Source: Chrysophaeum taylorii (lineage: Eukaryota; Sar; Pelagophyceae; Pelagomonadales; Pelagomonadaceae). Taken from it: a stretch of DNA of 61,278 nucleotides. Position 1 is the stretch's first letter. Every line of letters begins with the position of its first letter. The stretch covers positions 1 to 61,278 of the forward strand of contig JAQMWT010000195.1 of NCBI GenBank assembly GCA_029834535.1, written 5' to 3'. The position numbers and the translations under genes were made by a program. The notes beneath the pieces were generated by a model, which was given only the letters and a program-made list of their open reading frames with translations, was not told where the DNA came from and searched no databases. Below, one piece after another: positions 51,019 to 60,389 of this stretch.

Positions 51019-52326
51019 TTATCGCCGTTTTTTCGACTTAGCTCGGAGGATGTTTCTGTGGGCCCGCGAAGACACGTGGGAGTCGAGCGCGTCCTTGGTG
51101 GCGAAGGTCTTGTCGCAGACGAGACAGGCGTGCACCTCGTCGTCGTCGTCGTCCTCGTTTTTTGGGGAAGGCTGCTGGTGGCGGTCGTCGTCGTCGGCGG
51201 CGGGCTCGGCGTCCGAGTAGTCGCTCGAGACCCCGCACGAGGCATTTCTGGCGGCAGCGCGCCGTTGGTGGAGCTTTGTCTTGAAATGGCTGTCGAGCGC
51301 GTGGCGAGTCCGGAATGTTTTGGCACACACGTCGCACGCGAGACAATCATCATCGACGTCGTCGTCTGAGTGGTCAAGCCAGTCGGCCCTCGCTCGCTCG
51401 AAGGCCCGTCGCTGGTCCGCCCTCTCGCGCTCGAGGCGCTGGGCCTCGAGCGCGCGGTCCCGATCCTCCCGACGTCGCCTCGCGGCGACTCTGGGGTCGC
51501 GGCGCTTGCAGTGCTTGGCCAATCGTCTGACGGTCGTTTCGTACTTGCGCTTGGCTTCTCGACGAGACGCGGCGAGGCGTGCTTCCAGGTGCTTGCGCTC
51601 TTTCTTCGGTGCGTTGGCGAGGGCCGCGAATACGCGGGGGTCTTCCGCCTCTCGAAACGACCTCACGCTTTCAAAGTTCTCGAAGTGAAAGTAGAAGCGC
51701 GAGACGTCGTCCCAGGCGTCGGTCGATCGCCCGAACGGGGGTGCCCCTGCGTAGGTCGCGCCGTTGGCCTGCGCGGCGCGGCGCTCGCAGGCATCGACCT
51801 CGCCGAAGGCCGCGTCGTAGCACGGGTAAAAGCCCTTAGCGGGGTTCTGCCGCTCGAGGTTTGCCAAGAGGTTTCCCAGCCAACCGGGCCCGCCCAGCAG
51901 GCTCACCGTCAACGCAACGACGACCCGCAGCACCAAGACGGCCAGCGCAAAGACGAGCGCGGGCTCGACCCCCTCCGCGTCGTCCATCTCGCCGTAGCAA
52001 TCGCGCGAAAAATAAGGCCACAGCTGCGCCTCGTATCCATCAAACGCCTCCTCCGGCGCCGACGAGGCTGAGGCCGGGACCTCCTCCTCCTGGGGGCGGA
52101 GGATCGACCGACGGTTGGCGTCGTAGAAGGCACGTTCATCTTTGTCGCTTAGGCACTCGTACGCCGCTTGAATCTCTCGAAAAGCCTCCGTCGCCGCGGC
52201 CACGTCCTCGCCCCGCTGCGCAGCCTTGTCGGGGTGCCACCGCACGGCGAGCTTCTTGTACGCCTTGCGGATCGCCTCCTCCTCGGCGCCACCCTTGACA
52301 CCGAGCACCTCGTAGTAACAACGCAT
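51019..52326 (-). CDS. DNAJC21: DNAJC21/Jjj1-like J-domain zinc-finger protein
   Basis: 435 residues from the ATG at 52326. The J domain is at residues 1-70 (MRCYYEVLGVKGGAEEEAIR, HPD at 31-33, EIQAAYECLSDKDERAFYD). Next is the region typical of Jjj1, with GFYPCYDAAFGEVDACE and YFHFENFESVRSF, then a basic helix (ASRREAKRKYETTVRRLAKH). Two C2H2 zinc fingers of the U1-like type follow (CDVCAKTFRTRHALDSHFKT, CLVCDKTFATKDALDSHVSS). The protein ends in a basic KSKKRR. In yeast and animals the family assists late 60S ribosome maturation with Hsp70. Odd: residues of about 119-150 (ALVFALAVLVLRVVVALTVS) are strongly hydrophobic, which family members lack. A 60-nt segment inside (51906-51847, GTGAGC...CGGCAG) could be a frame-neutral intron. 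Divergent from the P-loop kinase by 45 bp. Confidence 0.88.
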   Translation of the reverse strand: MRCYYEVLGVKGGAEEEAIRKAYKKLAVRWHPDKAAQRGEDVAAATEAFREIQAAYECLSDKDERAFYDANRRSILRPQEEEVPASASSAPEEAFDGYEAQLWPYFSRDCYGEMDDAEGVEPALVFALAVLVLRVVVALTVSLLGGPGWLGNLLANLERQNPAKGFYPCYDAAFGEVDACERRAAQANGATYAGAPPFGRSTDAWDDVSRFYFHFENFESVRSFREAEDPRVFAALANAPKKERKHLEARLAASRREAKRKYETTVRRLAKHCKRRDPRVAARRRREDRDRALEAQRLERERADQRRAFERARADWLDHSDDDVDDDCLACDVCAKTFRTRHALDSHFKTKLHQRRAAARNASCGVSSDYSDAEPAADDDDRHQQPSPKNEDDDDDEVHACLVCDKTFATKDALDSHVSSRAHRNILRAKSKKRR

Positions 52327-52371
52327 TTAGGGTTTGTGTAAGGGGTGTGTCTGTCTGTCTGTCTGTCTCTC
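52327..52371. promoter_or_regulatory. 45-bp interval between divergent start codons
   Basis: Separates the DNAJC21-like ATG (52326, minus) from the kinase ATG (52372, plus). It contains a CTGT repeat. Shared promoter or overlapping 5' ends are implied. Confidence 0.5.
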
Positions 52372-53319
52372 ATGAGGTGGTGGTGGCTGCTGCTCGCGGC
52401 CCGGCATAGGGCCCTCCGTGTCTTCGTGAGCGAGGCAGCACAACGCCGACGCCTTAGCGAGGCCTTGCCGGACCTGCGGTTCGTCGATGACGACGGCGAC
52501 GTCGTGGTGTGGCTCGGCGGCAACCTCGCCACGCTCCGGTCCAACCTCGCCACCAACGAAACCCGCGCCGTTTTTGTGGATCGCGACCCCCAATGGTGGC
52601 AGGAGGTGCTGGGCAACCGCTTTGTGGTGTCGACGCACTCGAAGCACCGAAGACTCTTCGTGCTCTTCGGATGTCCGGGCGCCGGCAAATCGACTATCGC
52701 GGACGCCGTCGCGCTCGACAGACAAATACGACTCCTCGACGGCGACTGCTGCGTGCCGCAGTGGATGCGCGACAATTTTGCGCTCGGCATCTATCCAACG
52801 CAAGATCAGAGAGCGGCCTTCGCAGCGGACCTTGTCCACTACGTCGACCGAGTGGCAACCGGAGACGCCCTCCTTACCTTCAGCTTTGTCAACGACGACC
52901 TCCGCGACGTCTTCAGAGCCGCCTGCCCCGACGCAGCCTGGGTTCTCGTCGACACTGACAAAACTCTGGCAGCCACGCGCGTCGCCCAACGAGACGGCCA
53001 CTTCTACAAACCCCCGCCACTGAGCAGAGGGGAACACCACAACGATGAGTGGGCCTTCGCCCCGGTCAGCTTTCCGCACGCCCGCCTCGACGGCCGATCC
53101 GAGGTCCCCCACAATACCCGCATCCTCAGACGCTTCCTCGACTCCCCTATCCTCCTGCTCGACCTCGCCGAGGAAGCCAGTGGTGACGACGACGACGCCG
53201 TTGTTTCCGCTGTACGAGCCTCCTGCGCGGGTCTCTGCAGTGGTTTTCTCAGACACCCGCCCCTCTTGGCCGGACCAGAGGCCTCAACAACCCTTTTTCC
53301 CAACCCGAACCGCGGGTGA
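52372..53319 (+). CDS. P-loop kinase (gluconokinase-like) with LTR-derived C-terminus
   Basis: 315 residues from the ATG at 52372 (MRWWWLLLAARHRALRVF). The N-terminal 90 residues form a small alpha/beta domain I cannot name. A P-loop kinase domain follows: Walker A G-C-P-G-A-G-K-S-T (about 100-108), L-L-D-G-D after the second strand, and AWVLVDTDKTLAATRVAQRD then GHFY. The last resembles the R-x-x-x-R-x-G-H-F lid of gluconokinase-type kinases. Substrate unknown. The natural end is lost: from 53241 the frame enters a retrotransposon LTR, which supplies the last 26 residues (GFLRHPPLLAGPEASTTLFP...) and the TGA. The same peptide is encoded by the other LTR near 60065-60140. The domain is complete enough that the enzyme may survive, but this is untested. 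Confidence 0.78.
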   Translation: MRWWWLLLAARHRALRVFVSEAAQRRRLSEALPDLRFVDDDGDVVVWLGGNLATLRSNLATNETRAVFVDRDPQWWQEVLGNRFVVSTHSKHRRLFVLFGCPGAGKSTIADAVALDRQIRLLDGDCCVPQWMRDNFALGIYPTQDQRAAFAADLVHYVDRVATGDALLTFSFVNDDLRDVFRAACPDAAWVLVDTDKTLAATRVAQRDGHFYKPPPLSRGEHHNDEWAFAPVSFPHARLDGRSEVPHNTRILRRFLDSPILLLDLAEEASGDDDDAVVSAVRASCAGLCSGFLRHPPLLAGPEASTTLFPNPNRG

Positions 53320-53541
53320 AACCACCACACGCCCGACCTCAGCGTAAACGCTCACGCTATCACGAGATCGGACAAAGCAAGAAAGCAATGCAAATTCCTG
53401 GTACATTGGGTTCAGTGGAAGCGCAGGTGAGGGTGCCAAGATGACACCCCCCTCCCACAATTGCAAGGTCAGTACCAGGGCAACAATCAGGGTAAGTCAG
53501 GAGGCATGCAGGCAAGTGGGGGCATGGGCGTTACTGCCACA
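53241..53541 (-). repeat. LTR 1 (3' LTR of the minus-strand Ty3/gypsy element)
   Basis: 301 bp from TGGTTTTCTCAGACACC to TTACTGCCACA, bounded by TG...CA. It aligns along its length with 60061-60389, with small indels. As the element is on the minus strand, this is the 3' LTR. A G-rich polypurine-like stretch (AGTAGGGGGC on the element strand) abuts it at about 53543-53555. Confidence 0.9.
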
Positions 53542-53707
53542 GGAGCCCCCTACTTGAGATGAAGTCGTCCTCGACTTCAATGGTGACGAAGGTCACGCTC
53601 ACGAATGGTAAGATAAGCTCGATCAGCTACATCAGCAGGAACTTTGTTGCTGTGGAGGCCGAAGTTAGTGACGAGGACATCGATTTCATCCGGGCGAAAA
53701 AAATCAG

Positions 53708-56700
53708 TCACACAGGGTTCACAGCCCTCCATATGTTTGGTCGTAGGCGTGTGAAGCTACCTCCGTCAGGGTCCTTGTATTCTGGTCTTAAGCGTCGCTC
53801 AGCCAGAGGCTTAGTAGGATCAAAAACACGAGTATCATCGCGCGGTCCCAAATCGGTATAATAGTGAAGCGCATCTGTATCATTGTCGTGGTCATATTCT
53901 TCATAGACTTCGGCGACGTAGATACGCTTCTTCCACGCGTTGGATCGTCCTTTAACCCTCAAAATCACGAACTTGCCATGCTTGAAACGGTCGCGGTCTG
54001 AAGGTAAATGCAGAGGGGCTGAAGAAGTGTGGATGATTGGCACTTTCAAAGGCACAATCTGTTGTACAGATACTACAACCGACTCAGCATCATCGTCGTT
54101 GACGTCCTGAATTTCGTAAACGACGGGAGAGATCTTTCTGGTAACTATGTAAGGCCCGCGCCAAATGGGCCGTAGCTTGTGGCGCGTCTTAGGCACGAAA
54201 CGCAGAACATAGTCACCTGGGGGAAACTGGATGTCAATTTGGTGGGCATCATAGTTGAGTTTTTGGCTCTCCTGTGCTTTTTGGTGAGCTCGTGTAACGA
54301 GTCGACTGTAAAATTCAAACTCGTTCTTAAAGTCCATCAAAATCTGATGACGCGATTGCGGTAGATCACGCTGTTCACTCAAAAGATTGTAATCGGGTGG
54401 TAACAGGGGTTGCTTGCCAGTACGCATCATGAAAGGTGAAATCTTCGTTCCCGGAATGTACATCCTATTGTACATGAATGCAACATATGGGAGGAAATTC
54501 GACCAATCTGGCTGACGCTGTTCATCGATCGCAGCTCTCAAGAAGGCTTTGATAAATCGGTTGACACGTTCAGTGTGGTTAATCTGAGGGTGATACGGAA
54601 GGGTAGTACGATAACGTACGTTGAATTGACGAACAAACGTGTGCGAAATAACCTGTTCGCGAACTCATTTCCATTATCCGTGACTATGCACCGTGGGTGA
54701 CATCCCTCAAGTAAAATCTTGTCCACAAACGCTTTTAAAATTGAATAATCATGCTTGGTGTTGATCAGAGCCAATTTCAAGAAATGCGACGCTGCATCGT
54801 ACATCACGAGTATGTACGTGTACAGGTCAGCGCCTCGCAGAGGTCCAATCAGATCCATACCTAGGACATAGCAATCTCCGACGCGATTCGGTTGACAGAG
54901 CAAGACATGACGCTTAGGCATGGTGGATCGAATCTTCTGGCAAATAATGCAAGCATTGATGAACTCATTAACTGACGATGCGACGATTGGCCACCAATAC
55001 CGTTCTAAGATTTGATTCGCTGTGGAGTCTCGTCCTACATGGCCTCCGAACAATCCTCGGTGATGCATGGCGATTACACGCTTTCGCATCGACTGAGGGA
55101 CCACAATAAGACGTTGAGAATCCGAATCATCAACCTTATACAGCACGTTGATATCAACTTCATACGGAACGGATGACTGCTCGTCTTGATCTTTCTGCTC
55201 AGAATCGAGATTTCGTCTGATTCGCTTGCATGTGTCATCTTCAGCTTGTTCTTTCGCTATCTCATCTCATCCTCCGCTTGATCCGCAAAAGGAAGACGTT
55301 CGACGGAGTCAACTGGCTCAGACTCGTACGAGAATTGAGGCGGTTGTACGTTCTGTCGCGTACTAACTGCTGCCATAGCTGCTGTGGGTCCGCTGTCCGT
55401 CGGTATAGGCATCGTCACCGAAGAGAAGGTAAAACAGGCTGTGTCAGGTACATCGGTGGGGATTTCTTGGAAAATCAAAAAGCTTCATTGATTGGTTCCC
55501 GTCTTCGTCTTTCTCGATCAACTTGTCGATAGGGTTGCGCGACAGACAATCCGGGATGCGCATGCCAGGGGAATTTCCAGGTTTGTATCCGAGCTCCCAG
55601 TCGAACACAGCAAGCCGCATAGCCCATCGCGCTAAGTGTCCAGACGTATGGTTTGAATCCCGAAGAAATGTCAAATTACGATGATCCGTCTCTAATTTCG
55701 CCTGATGTCCTTCGATATAAAACCGGAAATTTTCAAGAGCGGAGAGTACTGCGAGGAGTTCCAAGCGCCGAGGGTCATACTTCCTCATCGATTTAGGCAC
55801 GGTTCGACTCTAGTACTCGACAACTCTTTCTTCTATTCTTTCTCTTCCATTGTCGTCAACGACTGGTACTTTTTGAAATAAGCAAGCACCCAACCCGTGC
55901 GCGGAAGCATCAGTTCGAATGTAGAAAGGCAACGATTAGTCAGGATGGTAGACACCCTTCGAAGTGGCAACAGCCTCGATGATGGCATCCCAAGCTTCCT
56001 GACACTCTTTTGTCCACTCGAATTTTACGTCCGGCAACGTCAGTTGTCTTAATGGCTCTGCAACTTTCGCAAAATTCCTTACATAACGACGGCAAAAACT
56101 CCCCATTCCAAGGAAAGACCGCACTTGCTTCTTAGGGTCAGCATCCGACAAAGTGCCGGGAATTGGCATGTGTCTGATGGCTTCTAAAGACCTCGGTGAT
56201 GGAAGCAGTCCGTTCGGGGTGGACAAATGACCCAAAAACTCAATGACTTCTTGCATGAAGTGGATCTTCTTCATCTTGGCGCTGTACCCTTTAAAGGCGA
56301 GATGGGGAATGACTTGCATAAGGGACTGCAAGTGATTCTTTGTATCCGCGTGACCGGCGAGAGTATCGTCGATATATGCCACGAGATCACGATATAGCCA
56401 TTTCGACAAATCCGTGTTTAACTGCTCACAAAACAAACTTCCGGCTGGTTTGACTCCCAAAGGTAGACGCATGTAGCTGTACGCTCCCAGAGGACTAGTG
56501 AAGGTTACCACATCTTGTGCATCTAGCGACAATCGTAAAATGTGATAGCCCCAACGAATATCCAAGCTGGAACGACAGAGCTTGTCGATGAGAAACATCA
56601 ACGCGTCCGCCATACTCACACTCGGCCAGCTATCATCCTTCAGCAATGCATTGAGGCGCCGCAGGTCGACAGCTGCCCTGTAAGCATTGGAAGTGCCAGG

Positions 56701-57852
56701 CTCAGCACCTTTCTTGGGCAACATCAAAATAGGGAAACCCCATGGAGAATTCGCGGGACGAATAACTCCGTCTTGGGTCCATTCTTCAATCTGCATCCGC
56801 AAGCATTCAATCTTTTCTTTCGACAACCGATATGGCGAAATTTTGACGGGAGTCGGGTTCTCTTCTTTGAACCGGAGCGTCACTTCAGGTGAATCAACAG
56901 GTCTCATCACATCATCGAAAAATGCCCACGAATACGAGACTAGATGCTTCATCATCAGCTTCTCGTCATCATCTAAAGCAGGATGCTCTGTAATACCCAA
57001 CTCAGCCATCACCTCTTCGACATGCGCGACGGTCGGAGGGGTGACCTGCATGCTCTCCTGATCCGCTAAATGAGGAGGCACCACCGGTAAAGGTAGACCA
57101 TGTTTGTCGTGAGGCGCGTCCGCCCACGGAGCGTCGTACTTATTGAAATACGCAGGTCGCTCCTTCGCGGTGCCTTCTTCTTCAGCAGTTGCGGAGGGCT
57201 GGTTGTTGGTTTGGTTGCTCTGCATAAGAGCAGTGGCGACGGTGCCCCCTGCAAAAGATTGAGCCGTCCCAGGCGATGTAACCAAAGGTGGTGGCGGGGT
57301 GGCGGGGGCAGCAGCTGATGGTGCAGGACTCGCAGGAGAGTAGAGTTCATCGGGCGAAATCCATGACACACTTCGAGTAGCAGGGTCGAGCGTTGGAATG
57401 CGCGACTCGACAGCAAAGGGTGAAAACCGTAGAATATGGTGATCGGGCTGTGCTATCGTAGTCGTCGCAATATTTCGCAACTTACCCAAATTTCGAAGTG
57501 AAGGATCAAACGAATTGTGCACTGCTAGCTCGATCCGCGTCATAGTCGCGGGTGGCACCATACTGCCAAGCATCTTCATAGCTGCTGTCTCTGAAACTTT
57601 CTCACCCCATTGCCACGTAGCAGGAAGGGTCATAATGGCCTGGTGCATCTGCAACGTGAGTGGGCGGGTGTTCGAGAAGTGAGGTCCCATTTGTAATTTG
57701 TTGCGCGTCACCATGAAGGCAAGGCCGATAGCCGGGCGCGTAGATGAGAAACTGTTCACTATAATGAGCGGGTGACCACCCGTAAATCCCAGCGCTGGGC
57801 CAAAACGGTCCCGCAAATTCGGTGGTACACACCATAATAACGGCAGTTCCAA
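53708..57852 (-). pseudogene. Ty3/gypsy Pol: RT, RNase H, integrase (frame-broken)
   Basis: 57852-55936 contains the C-terminal MTase part, a Pro-rich linker and a full RT: PYRLSKEKIECLRMQIEEWT, GFPILMLPKKG, YRAAVDLRRLNALL, and LVAYIDDTLAG (YIDD active site), with the connection domain RSFLGMGSFCRRYVRNF. RNase H starts IRTDASAHGLGACLFQ near 55925-55870, breaks near 55800, and continues with RRLELLAVLSALENFRFYIE and TDHRNLTFL. Integrase (55146 onward) has HHRGLFGGHVGRD...CIICQ zinc ligands, G-M-D-L-I-G-P and V-T-D-N-G-N-E-F. The Glu-bearing segment (NHTERVNRF) lies one frame away after a break near 54650. The last part (54541-53708) has the GPY module (IWRGPYIV) and a 100-residue extension of unknown nature (YVAEVYEEYDHDND). 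Confidence 0.88.
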
Positions 57853-58495
57853 GCGAACATTGCAAGCAAGTAGGCGCGTGCGCGATCACAGCGATTCTGG
57901 TGTAATATTATAAAAATCGACAATGCGCGGCACATAAAATTTGTGATGCACAAAAGGGATCACTGATGGTTCCTGCTCGAGCGTCCATCGTCCAATTACA
58001 TAATGTGCACACATCGGTGTCACTGATGGTTCCTGCTCGAGCGTCCATCGTCCAATTACATAAGGTGCGTTGCGGAAATGACGCAGGATCCAAGAAGTAA
58101 AAAGCAGCGACCTTGCGTGCGTCCCTGTAGTGCAAATTGGCAGTCGAGCCATAGATACACGGTGGACTTGCGTGAAAATAAGAGTGCGTCCAAAACTCTG
58201 AATGCAAATACGACAACACCAAGTCGTATGTACGACGATGAGATTTCCCCAACTCGTGCAAAACATAGGGAATCTTCGGAAAATTGAGCTCAAAGGTGGC
58301 TCCGGCTTGGGGACAAGCATCCAAAGCCAAGACAATGCGAAATGAACTGCCATATAGGTCATTGCATCGCCGGATACCCAACGTTGATCCTCCAGCGCCA
58401 GCAAAATAGACGACGACAAAGGTGTAGGTGATGGATATCCAAACCAAGGAGGCGTACTTAGATAGCAGCTCCTTAGCGGTCGAATCCATCTCCAT
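57480..58495 (-). pseudogene. C5 cytosine DNA methyltransferase domain inside the retrotransposon
   Basis: Read on the minus strand across two frames. Motif I is VVVYFAGAGGSTLGIR. Motif II is V-L-A-L-D-A-C-P-Q-A-G-A-T-F-E-L-N-F-P. Motif IV is HASPPCIYGSTANLHYRD, with the catalytic Cys in S-P-P-C. Motif VI is replaced by W-T-L-E-Q-E-P. Motif VIII-like is S-R-T-R-L-L-A-C-N directly after the TGA. The C-terminal motif IX/X region reads TRPLTLQMHQAIMTLPATWQ and then M-L-G-S-M-V-P-P-A. Order and spacing agree with a complete C5-MTase fold (AdoMet binding, target recognition, closing helix). The frame switches near 58080, and a 43-bp repeat at 60-bp spacing duplicates motif VI. This copy is not translatable as it stands, but related intact copies may exist. 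Confidence 0.85.
57961..58063. repeat. 43-bp direct repeat, 60-bp period
   Basis: CACTGATGGTTCCTGCTCGA and the following bases, 43 in total, are identical at 57961-58003 and 58021-58063. The repeat duplicates the W-T-L-E-Q-E-P-S-V segment of the MTase in frame. Confidence 0.95.
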
Positions 58496-58500
58496 TTCTG

Positions 58501-58512
58501 TTTTTTTTTTTT
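58501..58512 (-). other. A12 homopolymer at the Gag/MTase frame change
   Basis: The element strand reads GAAGTGAAAAAAAAAAAACAGAAATGG. Before it the Gag frame is coding; after it the -1 frame carries MTase motifs I-IV. It is either a slippage-type frameshift site or a recent indel. Confidence 0.6.
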
Positions 58513-59226
58513 CACTTCTTCACCTGGTGGTGGCTCAGGAGGAGGTCTGTCACTCAAGACATCCTCCTCGACTTGATTCTCGTCAACAGCAGCCATGAGA
58601 GTCGCATGACAAACGTCCTCAGTGGTCTCTAGCTGCATGTCGACACATCCTTCATGCGGCATGATCTCGCCTTCCACCTTACGCTGCAACTGCATAAACC
58701 ACGCGTTAACCTCATCCTGGGTCTTGGTGATTTGCCCAGTGAGAAGCAACAACGTGATACGAGTCATACTAGCAGCTCCCTTCTTGATCTGAAGTAGCTC
58801 TTCTTCGTTACGAGGGCGTGCTGAACCGGGGTCCGTATGATGCTGCAGGGTAGGCTCCGGTCGACTTCGCGGTGGCTGATCATCGGTCCGTGCCGATACA
58901 GCGTCATCCTCTTCGGGCGTAACACGCGTGGCATCCGGAGAGGCTGGCCGTGCCTCTCGAGCATGCGCCCGCGTGGATTCCTCCATCATTCGTCGAAGTC
59001 GATTGTTGTCGATCCGCTGCCGCCCCACTTCTGAGCGTTGTTGTTGCCCGTCGCGGCGGGCGAGCTCAATTTCACGTATGACTTGCTCGATCTGCGACTG
59101 GTACATCTCGAACCGCTCGTTGATGGTCTGCAAAATCTCGGGGTCGGTATCCAATCGACGATCTGCCGCAGCTCTCGTATTCGCGGATGGTGGCCTAGGA
59201 GGTGCATTCTCCTCTGGTCCACGCAT

Positions 59227-60035
59227 CGCAGTAGTAAATCCGGGGTGCGCTCAAGATGACTCCGTACCATTCATCGCACGTTCGTAGGGTCGTGCGTACG
59301 GGAACGTCGGCTCACCGGTCTTGAGGTTACGTCTGGCGCAACCGTAGCTCCCCCTTCGCCGGCGCGTGGATCCGGAAGGATGACCGCGCTTGGGGGGCTG
59401 TCGAGGCTATCAGATGATCTTGCCTCTCTTCTGATGCCGCTTTCCTCGGCTTCCTGCCGTTGAAAGGGCGTGCTGAATGGTGTTCTTCCAATGGACGTAA
59501 GTTGGGTCGCCATACTGAATCGTTGTAGACGTTCCTGTTCGTCCCGAAACCACTGCGGTCATTCTGTCATTGGCCTTTCTGCCATGACCGCGCTTTGCCC
59601 GGATAATAAGATTAATCCGAGCGCTCACAACTCGTTTGTTGCACTCTTTTTCGCCAGACGACACTTGCCGGCAGCCGTCTGACTGCGCGCTGTCCCGGTG
59701 CGCTGGACTTACGGAAGTTTTTGCCTTGCGCGTGAAGGCTATGGGCGGCCTTCCCGGTGCTGTCGCTCGCCGTCAGGGAGGTGGTCTGCCTCGCGCGAGC
59801 TAGGTTAGGTCTTACTTTTTGCCTTGTGGTTAGGTCTTACGATTGCTTTGCCTGCTGGAGTCGTAGTGACTCCGCTCCCCGTTCGATCCGAATCACGTAA
59901 AATGAACCCTGCAGTAGTACCCGTGATCCCCAAGATCTTCACCCACAAATGCGTCGGCTTCGCACTCACTCGACCGTTACGAACCGACTCGCCGCCGAAA
60001 AACAGGAGATCGATAGTCCGGGAGTTGGACTATCG
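59227..60035 (-). other. Leader region of the LTR element
   Basis: About 0.8 kb between the primer-binding site and the Gag ATG. It includes short minus-strand frames (59664-59410, 59513-59271), one with TSTTIQYGDPTYVHWKNTIQ. These may be upstream parts of Gag separated by frame breaks. Confidence 0.4.
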
Positions 60036-60036
60036 A
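60008..60036. other. Perfect 11-bp-stem hairpin beside the primer-binding site
   Basis: ATCGATAGTCC - GGGAGTT - GGACTATCGAT forms an uninterrupted stem with a 7-base loop, directly abutting the primer-binding site in the element leader. Confidence 0.75.
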
Positions 60037-60054
60037 TTCCCGCTTCTGAGACCA
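60036..60054 (-). other. Primer-binding site of the LTR element
   Basis: The plus strand reads ATTCCCGCTTCTGAGACCA. Its length and layout match a tRNA 3' end from A58: two T-loop bases, five T-stem bases, seven acceptor bases, discriminator, CCA. It is six bases from the LTR edge at 60061. The tRNA identity is not known to me. Confidence 0.72.
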
Positions 60055-60060
60055 CTGTAG

Positions 60061-60389
60061 TGGTTTTTCTCAGACACCCGCCCCTCTTGGCCGGACCAGG
60101 GGCCTCAACAACCCTTTTTCCCAACCCGAACCGCGGGTGAAACCACCACACGCCCGACCTCAGCGTAAACGCTCACGCCATCACGAGATCGGACAATTAA
60201 AAATGAGGGTAATAGCAAGAAGACAGCAAGAAAGCAATACAAATGCCTGGTACATTGGGTTCAGTGGAAGCGCAGGTGAGGGTGTCAAGATGACACACAA
60301 CCACATAATTGCAAGGTCAGTATTAGGGCAACAAGCAGGGTAAGTCAGGTGGCAGGCAGGCAAGTGGGGGGATGGACGTTACTGCCACA
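60061..60389 (-). repeat. LTR 2 (5' LTR of the minus-strand Ty3/gypsy element)
   Basis: 329 bp from TGGTTTTTCTCAGACACC to TTACTGCCACA, with TG...CA ends. It differs from LTR 1 by scattered substitutions and by an insertion around 60197-60224. The bases flanking the two LTRs on the outside (TGCAG versus TCTCC) do not form a target-site duplication. Confidence 0.9.

Follow-up and report, generated by a model that had tools for sequence, protein, structure and literature searches.

A Ty3/gypsy retrotransposon lineage in Chrysophaeum taylorii carries a C5 DNA methyltransferase (MTase) built into its polyprotein, with a diagnostic Glu-Gln (E-Q) pair in motif VI. The lineage was recognized through a decayed copy on contig JAQMWT010000195.1, within a stretch of 61,278 nt analyzed at its full length (hereafter the window), and its relatives were traced in the genome and in a protein database. 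The reading that we hold with a little more confidence than doubt is that a prokaryote-type C5-MTase was taken up once in the distant past, has been kept as a working part of Gag-Pol, and likely methylates the cDNA of the element. Retrotransposons bearing DNMTs, a gypsy element among them, are already known. As far as searched, the novelty lies in the lineage itself, with its E-Q signature and its depth, in the likely prokaryote-type enzyme, and in the co-occurrence with a capture by a Ty1/copia family.

The element was assigned to Ty3/gypsy on the basis of its LTR pair and its RT-RNase H-integrase order with H2C2 and rve domains, features seen in the window copy (Table 1) and in the genomic copy L034, where rve, unlike in the window, passes its cut-off (45.8 bits). 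A 4-base direct repeat, GAGA, is present on both flanks. The initial annotation had placed an MTase between Gag and RT inside one LTR pair; comparison of the LTRs, Pfam searches, and translation confirmed the LTRs, the RT with its YIDD, the RNase H, and the integrase, and Gag is named by position only, giving no Pfam match in the window copy and just 14.6 bits in the related copy L032 (cut-off 24.1). The MTase motifs likewise lie where they had been reported, on the minus strand and in order, with positions fixed by translation.

Table 1. Coordinates of the window element and of the MTase motifs within it.
Feature	Position in window	Strand	Basis or remark
Ty3/gypsy LTR element, whole, decayed copy	53236..60389	-	LTR pair and flanks; Pfam domains
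5′ LTR, 334 bases, TGTGGC...ACTACA	60056..60389	-	
3′ LTR, 306 bases, TGTGGC...ACTGCA	53236..53541	-	
Gag remnant, part	58664..59250	-	named by position; open frame; blastn against L031 and L032
C5-MTase domain, broken	57480..58459	-	PF00145 halves; alignment with intact relatives
Motif I FAGAGG (SAM-binding loop)	58388..58405	-	F-[AS]-G-[AS]-G-G in 6/6 genomic relatives
Motif IV SPPC with catalytic Cys	58157..58168	-	Cys invariant in 7/7
Tandem duplication	57960..58068	-	49-base copies 57960-58008 and 58020-58068, each with motif VI (E-Q)
Motif VI E-Q, two copies	58038-58033 and 57978-57973	-	translation
Motif VIII SRTR	57874..57885	-	both Arg invariant in 7/7; aligns with motif VIII of other MTases
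Motif IX TRPLTL	57669-57652	-	PF00145 positions 262-318 for motifs IX and X
Motif X GSMVPPA	57567-57547	-	PF00145 positions 262-318 for motifs IX and X
Open frame: MTase C-terminal part and reverse transcriptase	55939..57885	-	RVT_1 45.6 bits
RT YIDD	56376-56365	-	translation
RNase H	55447..55809	-	RT_RNaseH 56.4 bits
Integrase: zinc-binding domain with the initial part of the core	54541..55266	-	Integrase_H2C2 62.4 bits; rve 26.2, below cut-off 32.6
Integrase remainder and C-terminal extension	53711..54664	-	Integrase_p58_C 30.3 bits

The window copy is dead. Its MTase, initially described as complete-looking, is broken: motifs I-IV occupy one frame and motifs VI and VIII-X another, with a single stop between motifs VI and VIII. 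A 49-base stretch is present twice at a spacing of 60 bases, a tandem duplication that accounts for the doubled motif VI. Comparison by blastn with the genomic copies L031 and L032 shows, in addition, a deletion with its junction at 58664-58678, which has removed approximately 2.6 kb of the Gag-PR region that L031 retains. The same insertion is present on contig C475. A second jump was considered for that copy (100% identical) and rejected, as the flank outside the LTR matches as well (97%); C475 is therefore an alternative contig of the same insertion. Beside the element, a frame open on the plus strand (window 52342-53319) encodes a P-loop, GCPGAGKST, and extends into the 3′ LTR, so that a host gene may have been interrupted by the insertion. 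A further open frame, at window 51019-52326, begins like a J-domain and ends in repeats resembling zinc fingers, as judged by eye; it is apparently a host gene adjoining the element.

Intact copies with the MTase in an open frame with RT, which the initial annotation had proposed to look for, were found in the genome (70.8 Mb in 697 contigs, with 84 chlorophyll-binding-family matches). Two gypsy families bear an MTase, and the two enzymes are about 40% identical. The window MTase frame retrieved 152 listed matches and the MTase of the second family 127, the two lists overlapping in at least eight places; these counts are lower bounds with respect to missed copies and include pieces of single copies and alternative contigs. 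No internal stop interrupts 103 of the 127 listed family-2 matches, some of which are partial. Copy L030 displays a 2115-aa frame comprising, in this order, a protease-like region, MTase, RT, RNase H, and integrase, L034 a 1662-aa frame from MTase through integrase, and contig C5 two copies whose frames of 3063 and 3067 aa, known by coordinates only, span MTase and RT. Integration of a C5-MTase into a Ty3/gypsy polyprotein is thus borne out by several copies in which it is in frame with RT. The suggested PF00145 search gave a divided result: the window halves score 18.2 and 16.7 bits, neither reaching the cut-off of 22, and all four intact full domains tested pass it (25.4-38.2 bits). The L034 MTase, scored within its long frame, falls just under at 19.7 bits.

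The 90 best family-2 RT matches (of 123) fall into two sets: upstream of 57 an MTase match is listed, in at least 42 cases at 506-513 bases, and 33 have no MTase partner among the matches listed. One of these 33, L039 (C671:166200-167740), was read and is rearranged: the second half of the MTase is kept upstream of RT and is preceded by about 420 bases of inverted upstream element sequence, with motifs I-IV lying outside the 1.5 kb read. The usual aspartic protease motif is D-S/T-G-A; the protease-like region reads DGMA in both gypsy families (L030:3455-3850, L033:6502-6897), and neither of the two gypsy protease-like pieces tested gave a Pfam match.

The C5-MTase motifs are retained in order, with EQE rather than ENV in motif VI and with GS or AS in place of GN in motif X. 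These two departures, and the lack of an evident Asp in motif III, where C5-MTases are expected to carry one, speak against the reading as a working enzyme. The initial annotation had rightly called motif VI noncanonical, although the change is not from ENV to LEQ; Glu is kept and Asn is replaced by Gln. Its proposal that the change could mark the lineage holds, since E-Q occurs in all seven aligned members. In this seven-row alignment, 22 of 366 columns are invariant, including Cys101 of motif IV, Glu141 of motif VI with its Gln, Arg173 and Arg175 of motif VIII, and the Asp of motif II. For four given columns, the probability of all lying within these 22 is about 1e-5, a figure that ignores relatedness. 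Comparison by hhalign of the family profile with a profile of four MTases (P0001, P0002, P0050, and the host DNMT2-like protein) aligned 252 columns at a probability of 99.5%; in it E-Q is matched to the E-N of the other MTases, R-T-R to their motif VIII, and V-P-P to their motif X. This result, together with PF00145 scores above the cut-off in four of four genomic domains tested, rules out a chance resemblance to MTases.

The domain might instead have ceased to be an enzyme and be kept as a folded module of Pol that binds nucleic acid, for instance the template or the target, a reading to which we give an appreciable but clearly smaller chance. Loss of the motif X Asn in both genomic families, of the FxGxGG loop in the database protein P0003, and of the PPC prolines in P0004 would fit such a role. 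Against it, the catalytic Cys, the Glu, and both Arg are invariant in all seven rows, degenerate members included, and motif I and SPPC are both intact in six of six aligned genomic domains.

The MTase domain is under purifying selection between subfamilies. Its dN/dS is 0.08 in all four pairs comparing L029/L030 with L031/L032, alongside 0.08-0.11 for PR and a lower 0.02 for RT (one pair); these figures are rough because dS exceeds 1. Between the two gypsy families, dS is about 3 or not computable, and dN/dS is 0.22-0.25 where given. Near-copy pairs show MTase values of 0.14-0.64, the range expected for decay after insertion. A host MTase gene nested in one copy, the refuting possibility named in the initial annotation, or a chance resemblance could be entertained for the window because both halves there fall under the Pfam cut-off. 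We regard either as exceedingly improbable: listed matches number 152 and 127, the domain shares an open frame with Pol, it is under purifying selection, and it recurs at the same place in three database proteins.

Those three proteins, P0003, P0004, and P0005, contain a similar MTase domain at the same place as the genomic gypsy elements. A profile search of the protein database with the MTase domain identified only P0001 and P0002 (7996 candidates scored), and the MTase-RT part of L030 as the query identified 48 proteins (7985 scored), P0003-P0005 among them. PF00145 gives 13.2 bits for P0005 and no match at E ≤ 0.1 for P0003 and P0004, so that the three are called MTases by alignment (22-31% identity). 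They likely derive from other species, as judged from their RT identity of 45-54%; the source tag of P0003, mmetsp, denotes a marine eukaryote transcriptome set. Some relatives may be inactive: the motif I loop is gone from P0003, and motif IV is altered to VDC in P0004 and PSC in P0005. In this lineage the MTase has persisted while RT diverged to that level, and finding one enzyme, marked by one unusual signature, in such distant relatives from other sequence collections suggests an old, useful capture rather than an accident.

Both phylogenies, which have few rows and some long branches, are consistent with a single uptake. In the RT tree (21 rows, drawing on 16 of 46 usable database proteins), the eight rows with an E-Q MTase lie on one side of a branch with support of 100/100. 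In the MTase tree (17 rows, no Dnmt3 sequence among them), the seven gypsy rows group together at 99/97 and four copia rows at 100/100. Because each tree recovers one clade, MTase uptake is most simply placed before these elements split. Two metagenomic proteins resemble the lineage in being gypsy Pol with a PF00145 domain. P0050, in which the domain is flanked by RT and by a weak protease match (18.7 bits against a cut-off of 28.2), has the canonical ENV and falls outside the E-Q clade; P0041 differs in having its MTase between RNase H and integrase, plus a PHD finger. P0041 also displays a D12 adenine-MTase match below the cut-off of that family.

A second MTase-bearing LTR superfamily was found in the same genome. 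PF00145 identifies 57 places, of which 20 were read: 18 hold one other MTase from a Ty1/copia family (L010-L027), one a DNMT5-like host gene (MTase plus SNF2), and one a DNMT2-like host gene. For these 20 of 57 places, the idea that other PF00145 matches are copies of the window element is rejected. Nor was a further host PF00145 gene seen among the 20, a count from which intron-split genes could be missed. Membership of Ty1/copia is indicated by RVT_2 at 133 bits in L010, the sole copia locus tested. The copia MTase is located between a protease-like region (D-G-G-A in L010) and the integrase; its motif VI is the canonical ENV, its motif IV reads LPC, and its region has no relative among 7669 protein-database candidates at E ≤ 0.001. 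Like the gypsy lineage, the family encodes its C5-MTase within the polyprotein, ahead of the remaining Pol domains; it differs in superfamily, in keeping ENV, and in forming a separate MTase clade. That one genome houses two separate captures suggests a benefit to carrying a C5-MTase in this host.

By profile, the gypsy MTase looks nearer to prokaryote-type MTases than to either host protein. The family profile scores 62.4 bits on P0001 and 47.9 on P0002, both of which a related profile had already selected in the database search, and 1.8 and -1.8 bits on the host DNMT2-like and DNMT5-like proteins; scores this far apart do not point to the host DNMT5 or DNMT2 as the source. P0001 is the nearest free-standing MTase, and its own best PDB matches are bacterial DNA MTases. 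A search with P0001 retrieved 24 loci in genome_contigs and 5 in viral_contigs, all at low identity; among these P0001-derived loci, the family profile matched 17 of the 24 bacterial ones at E ≤ 0.01 (best 38.1 bits) and none of the 5 viral ones. A virus was considered as the source and rejected on this result and because the family profile, P0004, and P0005 each gave no match in viral_contigs. In the PDB, the best profile match is a bacterial enzyme (E 0.014) followed by DNMT2 enzymes (0.06-0.31), and no DNMT1 or DNMT3 chain is among the six matches at E ≤ 1, all of which are weak. The evidence leans weakly toward a prokaryote-type source rather than Dnmt3.

The DNMT2 matches raise an alternative in which the MTase methylates RNA, such as the element RNA or a tRNA primer, in the manner of DNMT2 rather than acting on DNA. 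DNMT2 enzymes directly follow the one bacterial enzyme in the weak PDB list, and PMC5890265 proposes RNA as the substrate of the LINE enzyme from Symbiodinium. We judge RNA methylation unlikely: the best-aligned parts of the DNMT2 hits are confined to profile positions 13-69 of 342, and on the family profile the host DNMT2-like protein scores far below P0001, a protein matched best in the PDB by bacterial DNA MTases.

Under the favored reading of a retained DNA methyltransferase, a Ty3/gypsy lineage would have acquired a prokaryote-type C5-MTase once, long ago, between protease and RT. The MTase would be translated together with Pol, enter the virus-like particle, and act there on newly made cDNA of the element, so that the copy would reach the chromosome already methylated. 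Premethylation could then shield the copy from host DNA defense or determine its chromatin state. What we infer in this scheme is that the enzyme is active, that cDNA is its substrate, and that the element benefits. Among published cases, a DIRS-type retrotransposon DNMT is described in PMC5890265 as methylating CG de novo, and the LINE-type enzyme tested there gave no DNA methylation in yeast.

Substitution patterns in the gypsy copies carry no trace of lasting CG methylation, since CpG transitions are not raised among them (ratio 0.83-1.20, five comparisons). The CpG observed/expected ratio is 1.04-1.31 in six gypsy loci, flanks included, versus 1.29 and 1.42 in the rest of the window, and no clear sequence-context signal was seen among gypsy copies. 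Ratios for CpG transitions among copia copies are 1.09-1.59 (six pairs). The missing gypsy signal is compatible with methylation in another sequence context, methylation of cDNA only, or good repair. It also bears on a self-restraint reading, raised in PMC5890265, in which the MTase helps the host to silence the inserted copy and reduces harm to the host. The host DNMT5-like gene could maintain such marks, yet this reading seems to us rather improbable given the high copy number, the lack of CpG decay, and LTRs that are 97-98% alike over 100-177 compared bases in three of six loci (in the other three, possibly cut, no LTRs were found). A bolder reading, which we consider more doubtful still, is that retrotransposons supply the de novo MTase of this organism, the gypsy and copia enzymes seeding marks that DNMT5 copies; if true, the methylome would be seeded by the transposons themselves. 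As the host C5-MTases found among the 20 places read are only DNMT5-like and DNMT2-like, the genome may suit a direct test of who makes new marks.

Retrotransposon carriers of this silencing-class enzyme were previously reported from dinoflagellates and charophytes, to which an LTR lineage with a diagnostic active-site change is now added. It shares the features of DNMT-bearing retrotransposons: an MTase in the element frame, multiple copies, and purifying selection. The closest parallel is KnitGypsy-Dnmt3 from the charophyte Klebsormidium nitens (de Mendoza et al. 2018, PMC5890265), likewise a gypsy LTR element whose Pol polyprotein includes a C5-MTase, with the domain under purifying selection (Ka/Ks < 0.2, compared with 0.08 here). 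The differences, drawn from the same published description, are that its repeats are arranged as in DIRS, whereas the present element has a plain LTR pair, and that its MTase is Dnmt3-related, whereas the present one has E-Q and is nearer to prokaryote-type MTases by profile. Judged from this description, the capture reported here is likely independent of that in Klebsormidium. SymbioDIRS-Dnmt3 and SymbioLINE-Dnmt from Symbiodinium, as presented in PMC5890265, are similar in carrying an MTase in retrotransposon coding sequence at high copy number and different in belonging to the DIRS and LINE classes with Dnmt3 or orphan MTases. A 2025 report mentions DNMT3 in LTR Copia and DIRS elements from streptophytes and dinoflagellates (PMC12344493). 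By that wording its elements, too, include C5-MTases in LTR Copia, so the copia MTase as such may not be new; the difference lies in their description there as DNMT3 members. No description of the E-Q MTase gypsy lineage was found in the open-access literature, preprints being outside the scope.

Downstream of the integrase, a stretch reading GKFVIFRVK...IYVAEVYE...LHYYTDLG and similar recurs in these elements (window 53711-54664, L030, L034, P0004, and P0005) with no named Pfam match, and could be a chromatin reader.
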